From Sinimarinibacterium flocculans (lineage in GTDB: Bacteria > Pseudomonadota > Gammaproteobacteria > Nevskiales > Nevskiaceae), in assembly GCF_003201205.1 (NCBI RefSeq), contig NZ_QICN01000005.1, positions 62,001 to 126,000 on the forward strand: 64,000 nucleotides of DNA, in the 5' to 3' direction. Made by a program: the position numbers and the translations under genes. The notes beneath the pieces were generated by a model, which saw only the letters and a list, made by a program, of their open reading frames with translations, ran no database searches and had not been told where the DNA came from. Positions 41,912 through 53,184 of the stretch are shown here, in pieces (the stretch's first letter is position 1; every line of letters starts with the position of its first letter).

Positions 41912-44164
41912 ATGCTCCCTTTGTCCGCCCCCGGCCGCCTCGCCCTGATCCTGCTGTCGATGCTGCCGGCAGCGTCCCTCGCGCAGCAGGCCGACGACAC
42001 GCCGCTGCCCGTCATCGACGTACCGCACTCCGACGACGCGGCACCCCCGGCCGATCCGCCGACGCATGGCGACGATGCCGTGCTGCTGCCGGTGATCGTC
42101 GTCACCGGCGAGAACCTCGAACGTGATCTGCATGAACTGGGCAGCAGCGTACAGGTGCTGCTTGCCGAGGACATCGCGTCGACGGCGATGGACGATGTCT
42201 ACGACGCCTTCCTGCGCACGGCCAACGTCAATGCCAACACCTCGAAGCTCGGCGGCTTCGGCGGCTTCGTGATCCGCGGCATCTCCGACACCGGGGTGTC
42301 CGACGCGTCGGTCGGCTCGGTCGCGCCGCTGGCGAGCATCCTCGTCGACGGCGTGCCGCTGTCGATTGCCGGCGCGCGCGCCGGCCCGCTCGATTTCTGG
42401 GACATCGACACCGTCGAGGTCCTGCGCGGTCCGCAGTCCACCAATCAGGGACAGGGCGCGCTCGCCGGCGCGATCCTGCTGAACACGCGCGATCCGGACG
42501 AGACGTTCAACGTTCGCGGCCGCGTGCGACGCGGCGAGTACGGCAACGAGCAGCTTGCCGGCGCCGTCGGCACGCCGCTGGGCGGCGGCTTCGCGATCCG
42601 CGGTGCCATCCAGCACAGCGAGGCCGACAACGCCGCGTGGAACCTCACGCGCGGGGAACCGGCCAATGCGCAGGAGTCGAACAACGCCCGCGTGAAGCTC
42701 GGCTGGAGCGACGTATCGGAGCACGCGCCGTCGGTGCTGCTGAGCTACACGCGTGCCGATGCCTTCAAGGGTCAGGGCCAGCTCACCGGCGAGCCGCGAG
42801 ACCGGCAGACCGTGGCCAACGATCCGGAGACACTGGAATCCGACTCCGAGCTGCTGGCCCTGCGCAGCCGTTTGCATCTATCTAAGCGCTGGTCGCTGGA
42901 GCTGATCAGCGGCTACGGCCAGACCGACCTGCGCAGCGAGGACGACTACAACACCAGCGCCGAACCCGATGGCGTGATCGTCAATACCAACGACGACCGC
43001 AGCCTGACGCAGGAGCTGCGCCTGCGCTTCGATGCACTGAACCTGTTCGGCCGCGATGCACGCGGCGTTATCGGCCTCTACGGCGCCGATCTCGACACCG
43101 ACAGCACGCTGCGCGTGATCGACGGCAATGTCACCGGCGGCGAGCCGATCGACGCCTGGCTCGACATCGATTCCGACATCGATCAGCAGCGCCGCGGCTG
43201 GGCAGCGTTCGGCGAGATGGACTGGGACGTCGCGCAGGACTGGACGCTGACGCTGGGCCTGCGCGTTGATCAGGAGACCCTGGATTTCGCCTACGTCTCG
43301 GACTCGTCCCTGTCCATCCTGCAGGACGACGACTCGCTCCCGGGCGACCTGATCGGCGGCCTGATCGGTCCCGCGGTCGGCCTTCCGGCCGACGCCGAGG
43401 GTGCGGGCCGCAGCAAGACCACCGCGGTGCTGCCCAAGCTCGGCCTGCGCTGGCGCATCACCGATGAGCTGACCATGGGCGTGCTCGCGCAGCGCGCCTT
43501 CCGCGCCGGCGGGCTGTCGGTGAACTTCGTGCGCGGCACGTTCGAGGAGTTTGATCCGGAGTTCACCACGACCGGCGAGCTGTTCGTGCGTGCCGAGCTA
43601 TGGGATCGCCGGCTGCGGCTGCGCGGCAACGTCTTCTACACCGACTGGCGCGAACAGCAGGTCGCCGTGCAGCTGTCGGATGACCCCAACGATGCGCAGA
43701 CCGAGAATGCCGGACGGTCGCGTCTGTACGGTGCGGAACTCGAACTCGACACCGCATCGCTGCGGGGCTTCCGTGGGTTCGCGTCGCTGGGCTACGCACG
43801 CACCGAGTTCCTCGAGTTCGACAGCTCGGGCGGCGACTTCAGCGGCAACGAGTTCCCGAGTGCACCGCGCTGGCAGGGCGGCGCCGGCGTGCTGTGGGAG
43901 TACGGCGGCTATGGCCCCTATCTGCAGGTCGATGCCAACTTCATCGACGACACGTTCCGTCGCGCGGACAACGATCCGGAACAGACGTCCGACGCCTACA
44001 CCCTGCTCAACGGTCGCGCCGGCTGGCGCTTCCGGCACTTCGAGCTGTACGTGATCGGCCGCAACCTGGCCGACCGCTTCTACGTGACGCAGCGCGCCTT
44101 CGGCAGCTTCATGGCCGGCGAGCCGCGCACGCTGATCGGCGGCGTCGAGTTCGACTGGGACTGA
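41912..44164 (+). CDS. TonB-dependent receptor (third of operon)
   Basis: 750 aa. Signal peptide ends SLAQQA; TonB box near LLPVIVVTGENL. The plug has DVYDAFLRTANVNANTS, FVIRGISDTG and VEVLRGPQSTNQGQGALAG; the barrel ends GGVEFDWD, unusual in lacking the terminal Phe/Trp (WD). It is similar in design to the second receptor, consistent with duplication. It starts 6 nt after the flavoprotein stop. Confidence 0.92.
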   Translation: MLPLSAPGRLALILLSMLPAASLAQQADDTPLPVIDVPHSDDAAPPADPPTHGDDAVLLPVIVVTGENLERDLHELGSSVQVLLAEDIASTAMDDVYDAFLRTANVNANTSKLGGFGGFVIRGISDTGVSDASVGSVAPLASILVDGVPLSIAGARAGPLDFWDIDTVEVLRGPQSTNQGQGALAGAILLNTRDPDETFNVRGRVRRGEYGNEQLAGAVGTPLGGGFAIRGAIQHSEADNAAWNLTRGEPANAQESNNARVKLGWSDVSEHAPSVLLSYTRADAFKGQGQLTGEPRDRQTVANDPETLESDSELLALRSRLHLSKRWSLELISGYGQTDLRSEDDYNTSAEPDGVIVNTNDDRSLTQELRLRFDALNLFGRDARGVIGLYGADLDTDSTLRVIDGNVTGGEPIDAWLDIDSDIDQQRRGWAAFGEMDWDVAQDWTLTLGLRVDQETLDFAYVSDSSLSILQDDDSLPGDLIGGLIGPAVGLPADAEGAGRSKTTAVLPKLGLRWRITDELTMGVLAQRAFRAGGLSVNFVRGTFEEFDPEFTTTGELFVRAELWDRRLRLRGNVFYTDWREQQVAVQLSDDPNDAQTENAGRSRLYGAELELDTASLRGFRGFASLGYARTEFLEFDSSGGDFSGNEFPSAPRWQGGAGVLWEYGGYGPYLQVDANFIDDTFRRADNDPEQTSDAYTLLNGRAGWRFRHFELYVIGRNLADRFYVTQRAFGSFMAGEPRTLIGGVEFDWD

Positions 44165-44236
44165 TGTTCCGGGGCCGGCACCGGGCTGGCGCGGTATTTG
44201 CGCCCCGTGGAGCCGCCATTCGAACCGGAGCCGGCG

Positions 44237-44707
44237 ATGAAGGGGGTCAGGGAGGGCTGGGGCCGACTCTGGGTCTGCTGGACCCTGTGTGCCGCATCGT
44301 TTCCGGGCATTGCGGCTGACAATGGTGCAGCCCTGTTTGCCGAACGCTGCGCGCCCTGTCACCAGCCGCAGGGCCAGGGGCTGGACGGCCGCTATCCGCC
44401 GCTGACGCATCTGGAGGACTGGCTGGCCACCGAGGACGGCCGCCACTACATCGCGCGCGTGGTCATGCACGGCTTCGCCGGACCGATCGAGGTGGGCGAA
44501 CAGACCTACGACGGCCTGATGCTCACCTACCGCTGGCGGCTGAAGGATCCGCAGATCATGGCGGTGCTGAACTACGTCGCCGAGACGCTCAACACGCCGC
44601 CGTCCGGCTACGTGCCGTTCGACCTGTCCCTGCTGGGCAGCATCCGTGCACAGAAGATGCCCGACGCCGAGGTGATGGCCCTGCGCAATCGCCTGCCGGC
44701 CCGCTGA
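44237..44707 (+). CDS. Small periplasmic cytochrome c
   Basis: 156 aa. A hydrophobic signal (LWVCWTLCAASFPGIAA) precedes CAPCH (Cys38, Cys41, His42). GPIEVGEQTYDGLMLTYRW supplies the distal Met. Single-haem class I cytochrome similar to those that serve dehydrogenases and oxidases. CGGAG precedes ATG 44237; the longer TTG start at 44198 adds a Pro-rich stretch and is less likely. The next gene starts 85 bp later. No partner oxidoreductase is adjacent. Confidence 0.88.
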   Translation: MKGVREGWGRLWVCWTLCAASFPGIAADNGAALFAERCAPCHQPQGQGLDGRYPPLTHLEDWLATEDGRHYIARVVMHGFAGPIEVGEQTYDGLMLTYRWRLKDPQIMAVLNYVAETLNTPPSGYVPFDLSLLGSIRAQKMPDAEVMALRNRLPAR

Positions 44708-44792: not shown

Positions 44793-46673
44793 GTGAGCAG
44801 CGATGTACGCGGGCGCGTACGCTTGGGCTTCGCCGATACGCTGAAGATCCTGCTGCCGTACTTCTACGGCAACTTTCTCGAGCAGTTGCGCGCGATCTGG
44901 TTCATCGTCGTCTACCTGCTGCTGTTCCAGATCCTGGTGCTGGGCCTGCCGATCGTGCATGCCGCCATGATCGGCGCCGGCATCGCCATCGTGGCGGTGG
45001 GCCTGATGTTCTTCATGGAAGGCCTGCGCCTGGGCCTGATGCCGCTGGGCGAGACGATCGGGGCGGTGCTGCCGCGCAACGCCTCGCTGCCACTGATCCT
45101 GCTGTTCGCCTTCCTGCTCGGTGTCGGCGCAACCTTCGCCGAGCCGGCCATCGCGGTACTGCGCAGCGCCGGCGCCGGCGTGCGCCCGGAGCAGGCGCCG
45201 CTGCTGTATAGCCTGCTCAACGACTTTGCCGACCAGCTCGTCGGCGTCGTCGGTGTGGGCGTCGGCGTGGCGGTGCTGCTCGGCATCCTGCGCTTCTTTC
45301 TCGGCTGGTCGCTGAAGCTGCTGATCATGCCGCTGGTGCTGCTGCTGTGCGGTCTCACGCTCTACGCCCACCAGCACGCGGTCCTGCAGCCGGTGCTGGG
45401 TCTCGCCTGGGACTGCGGCGCGGTGACCACCGGGCCGGTGACCGTGCCGCTGGTGCTGGCGCTGGGCATCGGCGTGTGCCGCATCGTCGGCGACGGCGAC
45501 AGCGGCAACGCCGGTTTCGGCATCGTCACGCTCGCCTCGCTGTTCCCGGTACTGGCGGTGCTGCTGCTCGGCCTGTGGCACATCCAGGCGGACGACTACT
45601 ACGGTCGCAGTCACTACGCCGGCACGATGCAGGAGGCCGCGCAGACCCGCGAAGCCGCCGCACAGCGCCCGGTGCGGCAGCCGGCCGGCTTCGACGACGA
45701 GGATTTCGAACGCTTTCTCAAGGACGGCGTGCCGCCGGACGACTATCGCCTGCGCTTCGAGGACGGCGAACCGCGTCTGGTCGACGGCCGCATCGTGCTC
45801 GACGATGCCACGCTGGTGCTCGAGAAGCGCCAGCTGCTGCAGGCCAAGGTCGTCTCGCGCGACACCTGGGACCCGGCGCTGGCCTTCGCCGAGGAGCTGC
45901 GCGGCGGCACCCTGTCGGCGTTGCGCGCGATCGTCCCGTTGTGCGTGTTCCTGCTGATGACGCTGCGACTGGTGCTGCCCGACCGCATCCGCAACCGCGA
46001 CGAGATCCTCATCGGCATCGGCTTCTCGGTGATCGGCATGAGCCTGTTCATGCTCGGCATCACACTCGGGCTGACGCCGCTCGGCACCCAGCTCGGCAGC
46101 AACGTGCCGCTGAGCTTCGCGACGCTCACGCCCTGGGGCGCGGAAGGACTGCGCGAGCCGCTGTTCGAATCGGACGTCGCCGGCAAGATCGTCGCCGCGA
46201 TCTTCGGCTTCTTCCTCGGCTACGGCGCCACGCTGGCGGAGCCGGCGCTCAACGCGCTCGGCAACACCGTCGAGAAGATCACCGTGGGCGCGTTCAAGAA
46301 GTCGCTGCTGATGCAGTCGGTGGCGATCGGCGTGGGCATCGGCATCGCTGCCGGCGTGATCAAGCTGGCCTTCGACATTCCGCTCGAGTACCTGCTGATT
46401 CCACCCTACGTCGTGCTGCTGCTGCTGACGGCCATCTCGTCCGAGGAGTTCGTGAACTTCGGCTGGGACAGCGCCGGCGTCACCACCGGCCCGATCACCG
46501 TGCCGCTGGTGCTGGCGATGGGCCTGGGCATCGGCGCCAACGTGCCCGGTGTCATCGACGGCTTCGGTGTGCTCGCGCTGGCCTCGGTCGGCCCGATCAT
46601 CACCGTGCTGATCGTCGGGCTGCTGGTGTCGCGTGCGCGCCGCGCCGAATCGCTGGCGGGCAGCGCGCCATGA
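44793..46673 (+). CDS. DUF1538 membrane protein (duplicated, probable carrier)
   Basis: 626 aa from GTG 44793 with GAAGGGAG upstream. Two homologous membrane halves are joined by a soluble linker (about residues 270-365). Each half has a re-entrant-looking signature: CGAVTTGPVTVPLVLALGIG and SAGVTTGPITVPLVLAMGLG, plus FAEPAIAVL and LAEPALNALG. This inverted/duplicated architecture is typical of transporters, and DUF1538 is a family of unknown substrate. It overlaps the downstream PII-like gene by 4 bp, which suggests control of the membrane protein by that soluble partner, as in AmtB-GlnK and SbtA-SbtB. Confidence 0.88.
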   Translation: MSSDVRGRVRLGFADTLKILLPYFYGNFLEQLRAIWFIVVYLLLFQILVLGLPIVHAAMIGAGIAIVAVGLMFFMEGLRLGLMPLGETIGAVLPRNASLPLILLFAFLLGVGATFAEPAIAVLRSAGAGVRPEQAPLLYSLLNDFADQLVGVVGVGVGVAVLLGILRFFLGWSLKLLIMPLVLLLCGLTLYAHQHAVLQPVLGLAWDCGAVTTGPVTVPLVLALGIGVCRIVGDGDSGNAGFGIVTLASLFPVLAVLLLGLWHIQADDYYGRSHYAGTMQEAAQTREAAAQRPVRQPAGFDDEDFERFLKDGVPPDDYRLRFEDGEPRLVDGRIVLDDATLVLEKRQLLQAKVVSRDTWDPALAFAEELRGGTLSALRAIVPLCVFLLMTLRLVLPDRIRNRDEILIGIGFSVIGMSLFMLGITLGLTPLGTQLGSNVPLSFATLTPWGAEGLREPLFESDVAGKIVAAIFGFFLGYGATLAEPALNALGNTVEKITVGAFKKSLLMQSVAIGVGIGIAAGVIKLAFDIPLEYLLIPPYVVLLLLTAISSEEFVNFGWDSAGVTTGPITVPLVLAMGLGIGANVPGVIDGFGVLALASVGPIITVLIVGLLVSRARRAESLAGSAP

Positions 46674-47905
46674 GCGAGCATTTCCGCGCGCTGCACAAGG
46701 TCTCGGTGGTCGCTGCGATCCTGCCGCCGGCGGCGGCCAAACCGGTGATCGAGCGCCTGTTCGCCGCCGGCGAGCGCAATGCCTTCGTGACCAATGCCCG
46801 CGGCACGCTGATCCGCGATCAGTGGTTCCAGCGCTTCATGCCGCTAGTGAGCCCGGAGAAGGAGATCCTGCGCTTCATCGTGCCGGACGCGCAGGTCGAC
46901 GGCGTCATCCACGACATCGCCGACGCCGGGCAGCTGCGCTATCCGGGCTCGGGCGCGGTCTACTCGGTCCCCTGCGACACGCTGTACCACACGCCGGATT
47001 TCCCGGTGTGGGCCGATGTCGACGACGAGGCCGGCGCCGATGCCTCGATCGCGCTGCGCGAGAACCTCTCGCTGATCTCCTGCATCGTGCAGCCGGAACA
47101 GACCGAGGCGATCTCGCGCGCTGCGATGCAGGCCGGCGCGCACGGTCCCGTCGTGTTCTATTGCGAAGGGCGCGGCCTGCGCGACCGTCTGGGCTGGCTG
47201 CGGATCACGAAGAAGCGCACCAAGGAGGTCGTGACGCTGATCGTCGACAACGCCGACGCCGACGCCGTGGTCGACGCCATCACCGTCGCCGGCCGGCTGG
47301 AGATGCCCGGGCGCGGCTACCTGTACTGCATGCCGGTGCACAAGGGCATCGTGCACCTGGCGAGCACGGTCGGCGGACGCCATCACGCTGCCGACATGCA
47401 GCAGATCGTCGCGGCGATCGACGAGCTGATGGGGCATTCCGACTGGCGCCGGCGTCAGGTCGTGCGGCTCGGCGGCGGCGGCCGTGCCGCCGGCCTGCGG
47501 CTCGACCCGGCCGAGCAGGCCGATCCGCTGCTGGTACCGCAGATGCGCGTGACCTTCATCTCCGGTCAGGCGCATACGCCCACCCTGCTCGACACGGCGC
47601 TCGCGGCCGGTGCCGACGGTGCGAACGTGATGTCCGCACGGTTCGTCGAACTCGAATCGCGCGTGACCATGGGCCGTCGCCTCAACCGCGAACGCAACTG
47701 GGTCCAGACCGTGATGCCACGGTCCCAGGCCGAACGAATCCTCAAGGCGGTGATGCAGCGCGTCGAGGCCGAAGGCATCAGCGAGACCTGCCTGTTCGCG
47801 CAGCCGGTCAGCCGCACCGTGACCTACCGCGCCCAGACCCACGCCGACACCGCCGCCGAGGCGACGGCGGGCCTGACCTACCGCGGCGCCCGCGCCACGC
47901 GCTGA
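46670..47905 (+). CDS. Triple PII-like signalling protein
   Basis: 411 aa, no membrane segment. Three successive PII-like (GlnB-fold) units: about 8-108, 131-233 and 291-388, each with an N-terminal strand, a helix, a flexible T-loop-like stretch, and a closing strand. The first two share YPGSGAVYSVPCDTLYH and MPGRGYLYCMPVHKGI; the third has ISETCLFAQPVSRTV. Because PII proteins act as trimers with ligand sites between subunits, one chain with three units could form a pseudo-trimer. It is coupled to the DUF1538 gene by ATGA. Ligand (ATP/ADP, 2-oxoglutarate or other) and effect are unknown. Confidence 0.82.
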   Translation: MSEHFRALHKVSVVAAILPPAAAKPVIERLFAAGERNAFVTNARGTLIRDQWFQRFMPLVSPEKEILRFIVPDAQVDGVIHDIADAGQLRYPGSGAVYSVPCDTLYHTPDFPVWADVDDEAGADASIALRENLSLISCIVQPEQTEAISRAAMQAGAHGPVVFYCEGRGLRDRLGWLRITKKRTKEVVTLIVDNADADAVVDAITVAGRLEMPGRGYLYCMPVHKGIVHLASTVGGRHHAADMQQIVAAIDELMGHSDWRRRQVVRLGGGGRAAGLRLDPAEQADPLLVPQMRVTFISGQAHTPTLLDTALAAGADGANVMSARFVELESRVTMGRRLNRERNWVQTVMPRSQAERILKAVMQRVEAEGISETCLFAQPVSRTVTYRAQTHADTAAEATAGLTYRGARATR

Positions 47906-47933: not shown

Positions 47934-48761
47934 TCAGGGGCTCAGGACCTCGAGGACCGCGGTATAGGACAAGCGCCGGTACGGTGCCTCGGCACTGCCC
48001 TGGCGGTCCTCGGTGCCGACGTTCAGCCAGTAGAAGCCGGGTCGCGGCCATGCGATCTCGATCCGGCCCTGCGCGTCGGTCTCCAGTTCCATCGCCTCGA
48101 CGGCGTCGCGGTAGCGGATGCCGTCGGCAATCACCTCGACGACGAGCCCGGCCGCGGGTTGGCCGTCGATGACGAAGCGCAGTTGCGCCGGCTCGTCGGC
48201 GTACAGGTCGTTGACGGCGCTGACCGGCTGCATCGCCAGACCCTCGGCCGGCTCGTCGAAGACCGTCGCCGTCGGGCTTCCGGCGGTGACGAAGGTCTCC
48301 AGCCGCGACAGCATGCGCACGACCTTGAGGTCGGTTGCCGTTGGCGGCAGCACCTTCGCGAGGCCGTCGGCACTGAACGGCTGGCCGCGCGGCGGCCAGC
48401 GGCCGCGCTTGCCGGCATCATCCCAGCTCGCACTGATGCCGTCGCGGACCATCGCCAGCTTGTAGGTCCCGGGCTGATCGAGCCGCAGATCGAAACTGCT
48501 GCGCAACTCGCCGGTGGCCGGGTTCGCGGGCGCGAGCACGGCACCGTCAGGCGCGGTGATCGTCAGCGACTCGAGTCCCAGCGGGCGGTGATCGCGGACG
48601 AAGGGGTCGGTCGATGCGGCGGCATCGACGGTGATCCACTGTCCGACGCTGAGCACGGTCTTGGACGGCTGCATCCACATCTTGTGTGCGTGCGCGACCG
48701 GTGCGCTGGCGAGCACGGCAGCGGCCAAAGCGGCCGACAGGGAAGGTTTCGTGGCGGACAT
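47934..48761 (-). CDS. DUF4198 periplasmic protein
   Basis: 275 aa. A signal peptide ending APVAHAHKMW is followed by the DUF4198 pattern (HKMWMQPSKTVLSVGQWITV) and Ig-like beta domains: LDQPGTYKLAMVRDG, PAQLRFVIDGQPAAG and AQGRIEIAWPRPGFYWLNV. Related proteins (NikM/CbiK-like) sit in metal-uptake operons. The His after the signal cleavage site would be an N-terminal metal ligand; this is inference. GAGGAG supports ATG 48761. Last gene of the Fur-controlled minus-strand operon. Confidence 0.85.
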   Translation of the reverse strand: MSATKPSLSAALAAAVLASAPVAHAHKMWMQPSKTVLSVGQWITVDAAASTDPFVRDHRPLGLESLTITAPDGAVLAPANPATGELRSSFDLRLDQPGTYKLAMVRDGISASWDDAGKRGRWPPRGQPFSADGLAKVLPPTATDLKVVRMLSRLETFVTAGSPTATVFDEPAEGLAMQPVSAVNDLYADEPAQLRFVIDGQPAAGLVVEVIADGIRYRDAVEAMELETDAQGRIEIAWPRPGFYWLNVGTEDRQGSAEAPYRRLSYTAVLEVLSP

Positions 48762-48771
48762 CGTGGTCTCC

Positions 48772-49317
48772 TCAGGGAGTGAGTTGAAGCTGCACGGCGC
48801 CGAGCTCCGACCGGCCGCGGGCATCGAGCGTCTGCCCGGCCGCTGGCGGCCAGTCGAAGGCGATCGGCAGTTGTTCGCGGCCGCCCTCCTCGCGCGCCGC
48901 TTCGACGACGAGCCGGTAACGGCCGTCCTCGAGCCCGGCGAGGGGTCGCGAGCCGGCGTCGAACCGCAGCACATGCGTGCCGACCGGGCGCGTCGCGCTG
49001 CTGAGCCCGTCGACCGGCATGGCGAGGTCGCGCCCACCGCGTCGCCACCACTGGCGCAGGTCGGGCAGCCACTTGGTGCCGGATTCGCCGCGCGGCGCGG
49101 CACCGGACGGCGCCGGGCGGTCGAGCTGATACCAGACGGAAAGCTGGGCCGCGACGCTGCGGTCCTCGCGCTCGATCCACGCCGCGACGTACGGGCGGTG
49201 GTACTCGGCCACGTCGATGCGCGGCAGCTCGATGGACAGCGCCAGCTCGGCCGCGGACACACCGGGGGCCGTCATCGCAAGACCCAGCGCCATGGACAGG
49301 AATCGGAAGTCTTTCAT
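48772..49317 (-). CDS. DUF2271 periplasmic protein
   Basis: 181 aa. Signal peptide ends PGVSAAE. The pattern VAEYHRPYVAAWIEREDRS, LSVWYQLDRP, WLPDLRQWWR and DARGRSELGAVQLQL is characteristic of DUF2271. In many proteobacteria it lies with PepSY and DUF4198 genes, as here. Function unknown; a role in periplasmic iron or flavin handling is inferred from the operon. The DUF4198 gene starts 10 bp after its stop. Confidence 0.88.
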   Translation of the reverse strand: MKDFRFLSMALGLAMTAPGVSAAELALSIELPRIDVAEYHRPYVAAWIEREDRSVAAQLSVWYQLDRPAPSGAAPRGESGTKWLPDLRQWWRRGGRDLAMPVDGLSSATRPVGTHVLRFDAGSRPLAGLEDGRYRLVVEAAREEGGREQLPIAFDWPPAAGQTLDARGRSELGAVQLQLTP

Positions 49318-49329
49318 TGCTTTCTTCAG

Positions 49330-49947
49330 TCAGTGAACGAACAGCGCCAGCAGCACGACGGGGGCGACCAGACCCAGCGTCACCATCGGCCAGGTCATCG
49401 CGCGATGCGCCGCGTGCAGCTTGAGCAGGATCAGGCCGGTGATGCAGAACACCAGGCAGGCGATTGCGAACAGGTCGATGAACCAGGTCCAGACGACGCC
49501 GGCGTGGCGACCCTTGTGCAAGTCATTGAGGTAGGCGATCCAGCCGCGATCGATGACCTCGACCTCGACGTCGCCGGACAGCAGATCGACGCTGAGCCAG
49601 CCGTCGGCGCCGGGACGCGGCAGGCTCAGGTAGATCTCGTCCTCGGACCACTCGGCGACGCGCCCGCCCGGGTGCAGCGACCATCGCGCGTCGAGCCAGG
49701 TGGCGAGCGCCGCCGGCAGGGCGCCGGCATCAAGCCCGGCGGCCACCGTCTGCAATTCCGCCAGCAGGCCCGGCGGCAGGCTGCCCTGCAGCCGCGTCAC
49801 GACCGGCGTCGCCGGAATCTGCGCGGCATGGTTCAGGGTGATGCCGGTCGCGGCGAACAGGATCATGCCGATCAGGCACAGCGCCGAGCTGATCCAGTGC
49901 CACTGGTGCATCTGGCGCAGCACGCGCGCACGAATCGAGCGGGCCAT
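49330..49947 (-). CDS. PepSY-associated transmembrane protein
   Basis: 205 aa. Helices at about 16-38 (HWISSALCLIGMILFAATGI) and near the C-terminus (FAIACLVFCITGLILLKLHA, MVTLGLVAPVVLLALFV), with LNHAA after the first helix. A PepSY-like periplasmic segment lies between, ending YLNDLHKGRHAG. These proteins often have haem-binding His and pair with receptor operons, probably in ferric-chelate reduction. ATG 49947 begins 8 nt after the piuC stop. Confidence 0.88.
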   Translation of the reverse strand: MARSIRARVLRQMHQWHWISSALCLIGMILFAATGITLNHAAQIPATPVVTRLQGSLPPGLLAELQTVAAGLDAGALPAALATWLDARWSLHPGGRVAEWSEDEIYLSLPRPGADGWLSVDLLSGDVEVEVIDRGWIAYLNDLHKGRHAGVVWTWFIDLFAIACLVFCITGLILLKLHAAHRAMTWPMVTLGLVAPVVLLALFVH

Positions 49948-49954
49948 CGTGTGC

Positions 49955-50641
49955 TCAGACCTCGGCCCAGCGCCGCAGCAGGTTGTGATAGACCCCGGTC
50001 AGCCTCAGCACTGCGGTGGTATCGGCACCGCTGCGGCGCAGCGATTCGATCGAGGTGTCCATCTCGAACAGCAGGCGCCGCGCACCCTCGTCGCGGACCA
50101 TGCTCTGCACCCAGAAGAACGAGGCCAGCCGTTCGCCGCGCGGGACCGGCATGACCTGGTGCAGGCTGCTCGACGGATAGATCACCAGATCGCCCGCCGG
50201 CAGCTTCACGCGATGCTCGCCGTAGGTGTCGCTGATCACCAGCTCGCCGCCGTCGTAGTCGGCGGGATCGCACAGGAACAGCGTGCACGAGATGTCGGAG
50301 CGGACATGCAGGCGCTGGTCCGCACCGCCGAGACGCATCACCGAACCGTCGATGTGATACCCGTAGTTGCCGCCGCCGCGATAGCGGTTGAAGCGCGGCG
50401 GCACCGTCCGCTGCGGCAGCGCCGCGGCGAAGAACAGCGCGCTGCGTTCGAGCGCGGCGAGGACGATCCGCCCGAGTTCGGCCTTCGCCGGCGAGGCATC
50501 CGGCAACTGCTCGTTGCGCTTGACCTGCGCGCCCTGTACGCCGACGGTCTCGCGCCCGTCGGTCCAGTCAGCCGCGGCCAGACCGGAGCGGATGCGGGCC
50601 AGTTCGTCGGCCGTCAGTACTTCGGCGATACGCAGCAGCAT
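49955..50641 (-). CDS. piuC: PiuC/YbiX-type Fe(II)/2-oxoglutarate hydroxylase
   Basis: 228 aa. Fe ligands: His96 and Asp98 in [10 protein letters not shown] and His161 in SSLHQVMPV; the 2-oxoglutarate Arg is Arg171 in [13 protein letters not shown]-type hydroxylases are strongly linked to Fiu/PiuA catecholate receptors, and one lies directly upstream here. They are thought to process siderophores or modify the receptor pathway. A 13-bp hairpin lies between it and the receptor gene. Confidence 0.95.
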
Positions 50642-50672
50642 CAGACGTCCCTCGTGCGCGGCGCGCGCAGGA

Positions 50673-50704
50673 GCGCAGGCCGGGCACCCGGGCCCGGCCT
50701 GCGC
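50673..50704. terminator. Strong hairpin between the receptor and piuC genes
   Basis: A perfect 13-bp stem, GCGCAGGCCGGGC (50673-50685) with GCCCGGCCTGCGC (50692-50704), loop of 6 nt. No T-tract on either side, so it may be an attenuator, RNA-stability or processing site within the operon rather than a full terminator. Confidence 0.6.
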
Positions 50705-50719
50705 GCGGTCGCGCCCGAC

Positions 50720-53035
50720 TCAGAAGCGGAAGTCGGCACTGAACAGGAACGTGCGCGACGCACCCGGCATGTAGCGGTAGCCGCTCTTGTTGATCGACGC
50801 GACATAGTCCTCGTCCGCGAGGTTGTAGCCGTTGACGCGCAGCGCCAGTTGCGGGCTGAAGGCGTAGGCGACGACCGCGTCGACCACCGTGTACGACTCG
50901 GTGTACGTCGGCGTGCCGACCGCACCGTCCGTGCCCCGGCGCAGGCCGTCGGTATGGCGCACGCCGCCGCCGACCAGCAGGCCGAACGGGAAGCGGTACG
51001 CGGTCCAGCCGGTGAGGCTGGCGTCCGGGGTGTAGGTCAGGTTCTCGGAGCCATCGGCGGTCACCGTGCGCCCGGCCTCGACACTGGTGCTCAGGTGCGA
51101 GTAGCCGGCCGACACCGACCAGTTGCGGGTGAGATTGCCGACCGCAAAGATCTCGATGCCCTCGACACGCTTCTCGCCGGTCTGCCGCGGCACGCCGTTC
51201 TCGTCGGTGTCGTCCGCGTTGATCTCGTTGGTCACCTCGGTGCGGAACAGCGCCAGGTTCAACGACAGCATCTCGTCGAGCACGTCCCACTTGGTGCCCA
51301 GCTCGTAGGTCGCCGCCTTCTGCGGATCGAGGTTCGGCCGGTCGAGGCTGTTCGTCGAGGTGCTGAACTGGAAGTTCGAACCGCCCGGCGGCTGTTGCGA
51401 GATCGCGTAGTTGATGTAGACGCTCGCCGTTTCGACCGGCTTGTACAGTGCGCCGAGCTTCCAGTTGAACAGCGTGTCGTCGTCCTCGGCGTTGATCGTC
51501 TCGACCAGCGTTCCCTGCGGCAGATCGCCGCAGTCGACCGCACCGCGGCCGGTGCCGCCGCAGGGCGTGGTGTTGCGGTACTCGGTCTGGTAGCGGTCCG
51601 CGCGCAGCCCGCCGGTGACGATGAACCGCTCGCCGAACCTGACGGTATCGAAGACATAGACCGCAACCGTGTCGGTGCGACCGACGCCGGCGCCACCGTT
51701 GCGTGAGATCGACAGCGTGCCGGGCGCGTTCCAGTCCGGGGCGTACAGGCTGGCCGGCGGCACGGTGCCGGTCGCGGTGTTGCCATAGGCGGTCTGTTCC
51801 TCGCGAATGACCTCGAGCCCGGTGCTCAGCGTGTGGCGGATCGCTCCGCTGCCGAGGTCGGCGCGCAGGTTGAGCTGGTTGGTCAGGATCTCGTTGACCT
51901 GGTCCTTGATCGTCGGGAGGCTGCGGTTGAGCGTGTAGGTCGACAGATCGTCGGGATCGGTCCAGCCGATGTTGCCGGAAGGCTCGCCGTTGTCGTCGAC
52001 GCCGCCGGTGCTCATGAAGGCGGTCAGCAGGTAATCCTGTTCGGTCTGTCCCCAGCGCGTCGTGTTGGTCAGCCGCAGCGTGTCCGAAAGATCGTGCTCG
52101 ATCCGTGCCGTGGCCATCCTGGCGACGCTGTCGTCGTGGTCATGGCGCGTGCCGTAGAAGTTGTGCGGATCGACCGGGTTGCCGGCCAGCGCTTCGAGCC
52201 CCGGCTGCGGCGTCCAGCCCGGCAGACCGATCGTCGGCACGAAGCCGTCGGGCACGTTGTCTTGGCGGACGTAGAGCAGATTCACATAGGCGCGCGTGGC
52301 GCCGTCGAGCCCGAGTCCGAGCGAGGGCGCGATACCGACGCGCGAGTTGTTCACGTGATCGCGGTGCGGCAGGTCGCTGTCCTGCCACAGCGTGTTCAGG
52401 CGCAGCGCCGCGCCCGGCACGCTGCCGAGCGTCTGGTTCAGGTCGGCCTGGGCGCGCCGCTGGCCATCGCTGCCCACGGAGACGAGGCCGGACACCGCGT
52501 TGCCGAGGTGGGCCTGCTTGGTCGCGAGGTTGACCGAACCGGTCGGCGCGGTGCGTCCGTAGTCGGTGCCCGCTGGCCCCTTGATCACTTCGATCTGCTC
52601 GATGTTGAAGACATCGCGCGAGATCGACCCCAGATCGCGGATGCCGTCGACGAAGATGCTGTTCGACGTGTCGAAGCCGCGCATGTAGATCGCATCGCCG
52701 GTGGTCGTGTTGCCGTTCTCGCCGGCATAGAAGGTGCCGACGCCCGGGCTGTTGCGCAGCGCCTCGGTCAGCGTCGTCGCGCCCTGCTGGGTGAACACCT
52801 CACTGGTGATGATCTGGATCGTCTGCGGCGTTTCACGCAGCGGCTGGGTGAACTTCGGCGACTGCACTGCATCGGCCTTGTACGGGCTCACCGTGCTGCC
52901 GTCGACGGTCACATCGGGCAGTGCCGTGACCTGCGTCAGCGGTGAGGCTGCGACCACCTGCTGATGTTCGGCGGTTGCCGGCTGCGCGCACAACGCGACC
53001 GCCGCCGCGGCGATCGGACTCAGATGAAACTTCAT
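50720..53035 (-). CDS. TonB-dependent catecholate siderophore receptor (Fiu/PiuA type)
   Basis: 771 aa. Signal peptide ends PATAEH; TonB box near ALPDVTVDGS. The plug shows LRETPQTIQIITSEVF, ALRNSPGVGTFYAGENG, IYMRGFDTSNSIFVDGIRD and IEVIKGPAGTDYGR; the barrel ends SADFRF. These are typical of Fiu/PiuA-type receptors of monomeric catecholates. A loop with CGGTGRGAVDC gives a disulfide. AGGGAG precedes ATG 53035. Operon leader; piuC and the PepSY/DUF2271/DUF4198 genes follow. Confidence 0.95.
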   Translation of the reverse strand: MKFHLSPIAAAAVALCAQPATAEHQQVVAASPLTQVTALPDVTVDGSTVSPYKADAVQSPKFTQPLRETPQTIQIITSEVFTQQGATTLTEALRNSPGVGTFYAGENGNTTTGDAIYMRGFDTSNSIFVDGIRDLGSISRDVFNIEQIEVIKGPAGTDYGRTAPTGSVNLATKQAHLGNAVSGLVSVGSDGQRRAQADLNQTLGSVPGAALRLNTLWQDSDLPHRDHVNNSRVGIAPSLGLGLDGATRAYVNLLYVRQDNVPDGFVPTIGLPGWTPQPGLEALAGNPVDPHNFYGTRHDHDDSVARMATARIEHDLSDTLRLTNTTRWGQTEQDYLLTAFMSTGGVDDNGEPSGNIGWTDPDDLSTYTLNRSLPTIKDQVNEILTNQLNLRADLGSGAIRHTLSTGLEVIREEQTAYGNTATGTVPPASLYAPDWNAPGTLSISRNGGAGVGRTDTVAVYVFDTVRFGERFIVTGGLRADRYQTEYRNTTPCGGTGRGAVDCGDLPQGTLVETINAEDDDTLFNWKLGALYKPVETASVYINYAISQQPPGGSNFQFSTSTNSLDRPNLDPQKAATYELGTKWDVLDEMLSLNLALFRTEVTNEINADDTDENGVPRQTGEKRVEGIEIFAVGNLTRNWSVSAGYSHLSTSVEAGRTVTADGSENLTYTPDASLTGWTAYRFPFGLLVGGGVRHTDGLRRGTDGAVGTPTYTESYTVVDAVVAYAFSPQLALRVNGYNLADEDYVASINKSGYRYMPGASRTFLFSADFRF

Positions 53036-53184
53036 GAGAACTCCCTGGGCAGTATCCGGGACCCCGTCCCGGGTGAAAGGGCACACGACGCAACCCTTGC
53101 GCACCGTCCGGCCCGGACGGAATGCGGCAGGGTCAATGGGCGCTTTGGGGGAACCGGAGACCGGTACTGCCTGGAAGCGGCACT

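Follow-up and report, generated by a model that had tools for sequence, protein, structure and literature searches.

PII sensors are normally built of three separate identical copies of one chain, and the arrangement in which PII genes adjoin transporter genes is already known. GlnK blocks or locks AmtB and SbtB does so with SbtA, PII homotrimers acting in both cases on trimeric transporters (sections of PMC10710835 cited here). A second point of reference is UmpAB of Halomonas zhaodongensis, a DUF1538 system in which two genes encode an Na+(Li+,K+)/H+ antiporter (sections of PMC5484666 cited here). Here, we describe a two-gene locus of Sinimarinibacterium flocculans in which the gene for a fused DUF1538 membrane protein is followed by one that, on sequence comparison, encodes three PII-type units in a single chain of 411 amino acids (aa). 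The locus lies in a window of 64,000 nucleotides (contig NZ_QICN01000005.1, positions 62,001 to 126,000, forward strand), and all coordinates are those of this window. We propose, at roughly even odds, that the chain is a dedicated PII-like regulator, fused and asymmetric, that gates a putative cation/proton antiporter of the UmpAB type; antiport, binding, gating, packing and ligand are the parts that we infer.

The locus resembles UmpAB in having two homologous DUF1538 halves, the first closest to UmpA and the second to UmpB. It differs in that the carrier is a single chain, its halves joined by a linker some 110 residues long, scores under the equivalog cut-offs and has a putative activity, and in that PII is not mentioned in the cited sections of the UmpAB account (PMC5484666). 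With GlnK–AmtB and SbtB–SbtA it shares the coupling of a PII-type gene to a membrane transporter gene, but the transporter belongs to another family, the three units are unlike, canonical ligand motifs are missing and the interaction is presumed. The nearest relatives are single PII-like genes that follow umpA-umpB or a fused umpAB in other genomes, with the same gene order, a short T-loop and no canonical motifs; those beside fused UmpAB correspond to unit 2 of the three-unit chain. They differ in having one unit per chain (68 loci), and 21 of 40 loci of the unit-2 type have a second PII gene, unfused. The literature searched, which did not extend to subscription journals, yielded no account of a PII with three units in one chain, and the sections covered, UmpAB of cable bacteria included, none of a link between PII and DUF1538 or UmpAB.

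The locus and its two genes

The two genes and their junction are placed as follows, as they had been in the preliminary description of this DNA, whose coordinates, reading frames and ATGA overlap stand.

44793..46673, + strand: DUF1538 gene, encoding a fused UmpA-UmpB-like membrane protein of 626 aa with a GTG start (Pfam PF07556, NCBIfam)
46670..47905, + strand: gene for the three-unit PII-like protein of 411 aa with an ATG start (Pfam P-II in three stretches; seven full-length homologues)
46670..46673, + strand: ATGA, an overlap of stop and start by 4 bases (read from the sequence; kept in 7/7 homologous loci)

Seven more full-length homologues of the chain, 70–78% identical to the window protein, are found in other genomes, and each of these seven loci has the 4-base overlap with the upstream DUF1538 gene (in L113 that gene is cut by the contig end). 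The three-unit open reading frame (ORF) is not an assembly accident, because seven further full-length homologues with the identical overlap exist. Chance is likewise ruled out as its source: seven further genomes keep the ORF, and reversed or shuffled profiles fail.

Three PII units in one chain

The Pfam P-II family (PF00543) matches the 411-aa chain with 51 bits, against a cut-off of 25, in three stretches. The units are placed as follows.

46688..46990, + strand: PII unit 1 (aa 7–107); 15.8 bits alone, profile comparison 98.2%, predicted secondary structure
47066..47335, + strand: PII unit 2 (aa 133–222), the unit to which single PII genes next to fused UmpAB correspond; 33.5 bits alone, profile comparison 98.9%
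47540..47809, + strand: PII unit 3 (aa 291–380), the most divergent; 12.8 bits alone, profile comparison 96.6%, predicted secondary structure

Scored singly, unit 2 exceeds the Pfam cut-off, and units 1 and 3 fall below it. For profile–profile comparison, the profile of each unit (eight homologues) was set against 39 rows, comprising 37 single PII genes and the GlnB and GlnK of the genome itself; all three units reach a probability of at least 96.6%, over 95–101 columns. The reversed profiles stay at or below 0.5%, and none of ten column shuffles per unit exceeds 7%. When units are compared directly, 1 and 2 recognise each other (93%), and the pairs 1–3 and 2–3 give only 0.8% and 2.3%; unit 3 is therefore distant from the other two, and it is by way of the single PIIs that it can be recognised. 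The preliminary description had read three successive PII units by eye, and this is borne out by the Pfam stretches, the profile comparison and the predicted fold; its suggestion that each third be searched against PII families succeeds in the Pfam search for unit 2 and in the profile comparison for all three. These comparisons show that the chain comprises three PII-type units.

In a predicted structure built from 65 alignment rows, the order beta-alpha-beta-beta-alpha-beta appears three times, at aa 6–107, 133–222 and 291–380. The mean predicted local distance difference test score (pLDDT) is 66.1 and the predicted template modelling score (pTM) 0.41, compared with 42.9 and 0.33 for a prediction from eight rows; confidence is fair inside the units and low between them. 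All 57 single-unit rows landed on unit 2 in trial alignments, so units 1 and 3 of the model rest on eight rows. The best Foldseek matches of the model are GlnK/PII chains (lowest E 1.7e-6). Each of the three units is thus predicted by the model to have the PII double beta-alpha-beta fold. The preliminary description had expected a compact pseudo-trimer of three such units; the prediction agrees on the units, and for their compact packing offers a pTM of 0.41 and low inter-unit confidence.

Those figures also bear on a different architecture, with no internal trimer, in which the units are strung like beads: unit 2 would trimerise across three chains, and units 1 and 3 would be appended binding or scaffold domains. 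It is favoured by the standing of unit 2, which alone passes the Pfam cut-off singly and alone closely matches the single PII partners of the carriers, by the pTM of 0.41 and by unit 3 being without the PGxG loop. We consider it unlikely, though a serious competitor, given that unit 1 is conserved at least as well as unit 2 (mean identity across the eight proteins 88% versus 83%) and that the number of units equals the number of subunits in a PII trimer in 8/8 proteins.

Ligand motifs and T-loops

The motifs GxGRQ, GDGK and RxRTGE serve the binding of ATP and 2-oxoglutarate in canonical PII proteins. They are absent from all eight three-unit proteins and from all 131 single PII ORFs of the loci that were fetched. 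The GlnB and GlnK of the genome itself, encoded on another contig, carry all three (GlnK serving as positive control), and in the alignment their T-loop is about five residues longer than that of the carrier-linked PIIs. The loss of motifs and the short T-loop belong to the carrier-linked group as a whole, not to the fusion, because the single-unit relatives have them too. Since the motifs are absent from three-unit and single carrier-linked PIIs alike, the ligand of this group, as read from sequence, is probably not the classical pair of ATP and 2-oxoglutarate. The best match of the PII profile among solved structures is 9p1x, in which the alignment places a GDG loop.

That the chain nonetheless senses ATP, ADP and 2-oxoglutarate in the classical way, at three ordinary sites, would accord with its membership of the Pfam P-II family. 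We regard this as highly improbable in view of the missing motifs (0/8 and 0/131), the shortened T-loop and the two canonical PII genes that the genome already has on another contig. The three ATP/2-oxoglutarate sites envisaged in the preliminary description accordingly find no support in the chain or in its single-unit relatives, and nothing in the present data shows the further idea of one membrane protein answering several metabolites.

The B-loop sequence PGxG is found in units 1 and 2 of 8/8 proteins and is missing from unit 3. Two of the three T-loop regions, those of units 2 and 3, are strongly conserved: in unit 3 no other window is as well conserved as this region, which in unit 2 is invariant.

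47162..47227, + strand: T-loop region of unit 2 (aa 165–186); 22/22 positions identical in eight proteins

The fused DUF1538 carrier

Pfam DUF1538 (PF07556) matches the 626-aa protein with 369.8 bits, against a cut-off of 22.6, in two stretches, and the two halves align to each other with 33% identity over 274 columns (E 2e-27). The claim of two homologous halves, each with a TTGPxTVPLVLA motif, is confirmed by this alignment and by the motifs TTGPVTVPLVLA and TTGPITVPLVLA.

44904..45575, + strand: first DUF1538 domain, the UmpA-like half (Pfam, 190.2 bits)
45426..45461, + strand: first-half motif TTGPVTVPLVLA (read from the sequence)
45582..45911, + strand: linker joining the halves, about 110 residues (gap separating the two domain matches)
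45942..46622, + strand: second DUF1538 domain, the UmpB-like half (Pfam, 193.2 bits)
46482..46517, + strand: second-half motif TTGPITVPLVLA (read from the sequence)

The best NCBIfam match is UmpA for the first half and UmpB for the second, with scores of 223.4 for UmpA (NF041627; equivalog cut-off 490) and 167.1 for UmpB (NF041628; cut-off 500). The carrier is thus best described as a fused relative of UmpAB, not UmpAB itself, with a putative antiport activity. Its assignment to DUF1538 in the preliminary description was right, with the correction that the family has a characterised member in the UmpAB antiporter. No convincing DUF1538 relative was found among solved structures, the best match being a chlorophyll-binding protein at E 0.0049.

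The linker sets the carriers of three-unit loci apart. The gap between the two domain matches is 103–112 aa in all seven measurable three-unit loci, compared with 24–38 aa in 40/40 other fused carriers, so that the enlarged linker is found in exactly the three-unit lineage. It is less conserved than the halves (mean identity 61% versus 89% in seven sequences), and a Pfam scan of it gave no match. The hydropathy profile suggests about seven hydrophobic segments per half, set by eye. Mean counts of lysine and arginine per loop, rough in that they rest on these by-eye segments, hint that the halves have opposite orientations in the membrane, as in inverted-repeat carriers. The same loop charges suggest that the linker faces the periplasm; by this weak indication, docking of the PII chain on the linker would be excluded.

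Pairing of carrier and PII genes in the phylum

DUF1538 matches are present in 126 of the 398 sampled genomes of the phylum. Seventy loci were examined, one per genome, comprising the 30 best-scoring and 40 more further down the match list; they come from the better-scoring part, and low-scoring DUF1538 proteins are under-represented. A PII-like ORF lies at most 400 bases downstream on the same strand in 68/70 loci, the misses being L182, whose contig has only 3,475 bases, and L162. All PII ORFs at the 68 loci are single-unit, and the carrier is fused in 5/70. A carrier with a single PII is therefore the usual arrangement in the phylum, from which the three-unit chain departs. At L162 (G121:C189) there is a split DUF1538 pair with no detectable PII gene in 9.4 kb, and two PII matches elsewhere in the genome. 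Two genomes have a split umpA-umpB-PII set and, right beside it, a fused umpAB-PII set (L117:741-5353, L122:130-7640).

The view that DUF1538 and PII genes are conserved neighbours is upheld by this sample, and an objection that they rarely stand together fails because 68/70 loci are paired and carrier and chain occur in the same 8/85 genomes of the order. This pairing has a bearing on the possibility that the PII-like chain is co-expressed with the carrier and acts on a different client, for example an enzyme or transcription factor. Many PII proteins serve several clients, and contact between chain and carrier is here presumed, points in its favour; the 68/70 pairing, the identical distribution of chain and carrier in the order and the lack of any third gene common to the three-unit loci make it improbable.

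Distribution and origin of the three-unit chain

Within the order of the window, the three-unit profile matches 8/85 genomes, and DUF1538 matches the same eight. A scan of genome contigs with two peptide patterns, a method that misses distant relatives, found four loci, in Sinimarinibacterium sp. CAU 1509, an Abyssibacter metagenome-assembled genome (MAG), a Nevskiales MAG and a Salinisphaerales MAG. Viral contigs, searched by pattern, and plasmids yielded no relative of the 411-aa protein. A weak match with stop codons in G457 (E 1.8e-4) was dropped, being absent from the later profile search. Flanking ORFs are common to close relatives only (L108 with L109, and L112 to L114), the exception being receptor-like ORFs of the window and L111, which match at 24–25%. 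The inherited unit is thus a two-gene cassette, because the flanks are otherwise shared among close relatives alone.

In the phylum sample, 62 genomes besides that of the window match the three-unit profile, none over more than about 140 of its 403 positions and nearly always around unit 2. Among the 40 strongest-matching loci, DUF1538 lies directly upstream in 38 (in L154 as a short piece at the contig end), and in the remaining two, L140 and L146, the contig stops at this point. For all 37 adjacent single genes, termed PII-a, unit 2 scores highest and by a wide margin (mean 74 bits versus 30 and 17), in a comparison that leans to unit 2 in that these genes were found by match to the three-unit protein, mostly to that unit. 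The final PII-a set has 39 genes, one row with unknown residues having been left out. In 21 of the 40 loci (L115–L154) a second, divergent PII-like ORF, PII-b, directly follows PII-a (e.g. L151:4955-5666), and the two could form a heterotrimer.

In a FastTree phylogeny of the carriers with midpoint root, 35 carriers of PII-a loci and seven of three-unit loci fall on one side (support 0.98), the three-unit carriers as one group (support 1.0). The other side holds the split pairs and five other fused proteins. The split pair of L153 stands on that other side, on a long branch, yet its PII is unit-2-like. In the PII tree (115 rows, 121 columns, long branches flagged), the eight copies of each unit group together in a separate clade; the tripling therefore predates the split of these lineages. 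The same 115-row tree leaves the source of units 1 and 3 without a placement. By direct scoring, unit 1 scores best to PII-a, and unit 3 makes little distinction between PII-a and the PII of split pairs. Descent of units 1 or 3 from PII-b is unsupported: unit 1 has 37.5–42.7 bits to PII-a and 16.7–24.3 to PII-b, and for unit 3 the corresponding figures are 20.4–27.5 and no more than 10. The simplest history that we infer from these sequences would be an in-chain duplication of the PII-a gene beside a fused carrier.

Proposed working of the pair

In the proposed scheme, the two genes would make one regulated transporter. The product of the first, in which UmpA and UmpB are fused, would most likely exchange monovalent cations for protons as UmpAB does; that of the second would be its dedicated cytoplasmic regulator, with three PII subunits merged into one chain. 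Such a chain may fold into a fixed pseudo-trimer in which the three T-loops all differ and as many as three clefts are distinct. On a change in ligand state, the T-loops would dock on the antiporter at its cytoplasmic face and thereby block or release it, much as in GlnK–AmtB and SbtB–SbtA. An asymmetric regulator could fit this carrier better than a symmetric one, because the carrier consists of two unlike halves and not of three identical chains. The pairing, the conservation of T-loops and the matched changes of carrier and regulator fit, by analogy, PII–transporter logic applied to a putative antiporter.

Several observations weigh against the proposal. The carrier is below both the UmpA and the UmpB equivalog cut-offs. 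The T-loop of unit 1 is unexceptional, 16/79 windows being more conserved. Unit 3 goes unrecognised by direct comparison with unit 1 or unit 2. The pTM of the predicted structure gives no backing for trimer packing, and the whole-model Foldseek matches span one unit only. Finally, Halomonas UmpAB is active in Escherichia coli with two genes and without any PII mentioned in the cited sections (PMC5484666), so PII would not be needed for transport as such.

A fuller version of the scheme is held more tentatively. The chain would be a single-chain, asymmetric PII pseudo-trimer without canonical ATP/2-oxoglutarate sensing, whose one client is an antiporter of two unlike, fused halves and whose three T-loops are each specialised for a different contact. 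It would stand at the end of a series that runs from one PII gene through two PII genes to three fused units, alongside changes in the carrier.

If true, the proposal would extend PII-type control to monovalent cation/proton antiport, which is not among the PII-regulated transporters in the cited sections of the review (PMC10710835). In a fused PII the clefts and T-loops could be altered one at a time, which is impossible in a homotrimer, and therefore the number of sites and loops that PII signalling needs would become directly testable. The near-constant presence of a PII-like gene after DUF1538 in the sampled phylum (68/70) also offers a starting point for finding out how this little-studied family of transporters is regulated.

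Neighbouring genes

Directly upstream of the DUF1538 gene, at 41912-44707, are genes for a TonB-dependent receptor and a small cytochrome c, which are not common to the other three-unit loci, apart from the 24% receptor match in L111. Downstream, the - strand carries at 47934-53104, after a 794-aa ORF that by eye is TonB-dependent receptor-like, genes for DUF4198, DUF2271, PepSY-TM and PKHD-type hydroxylase proteins; this is probably an ordinary metal-uptake cluster.

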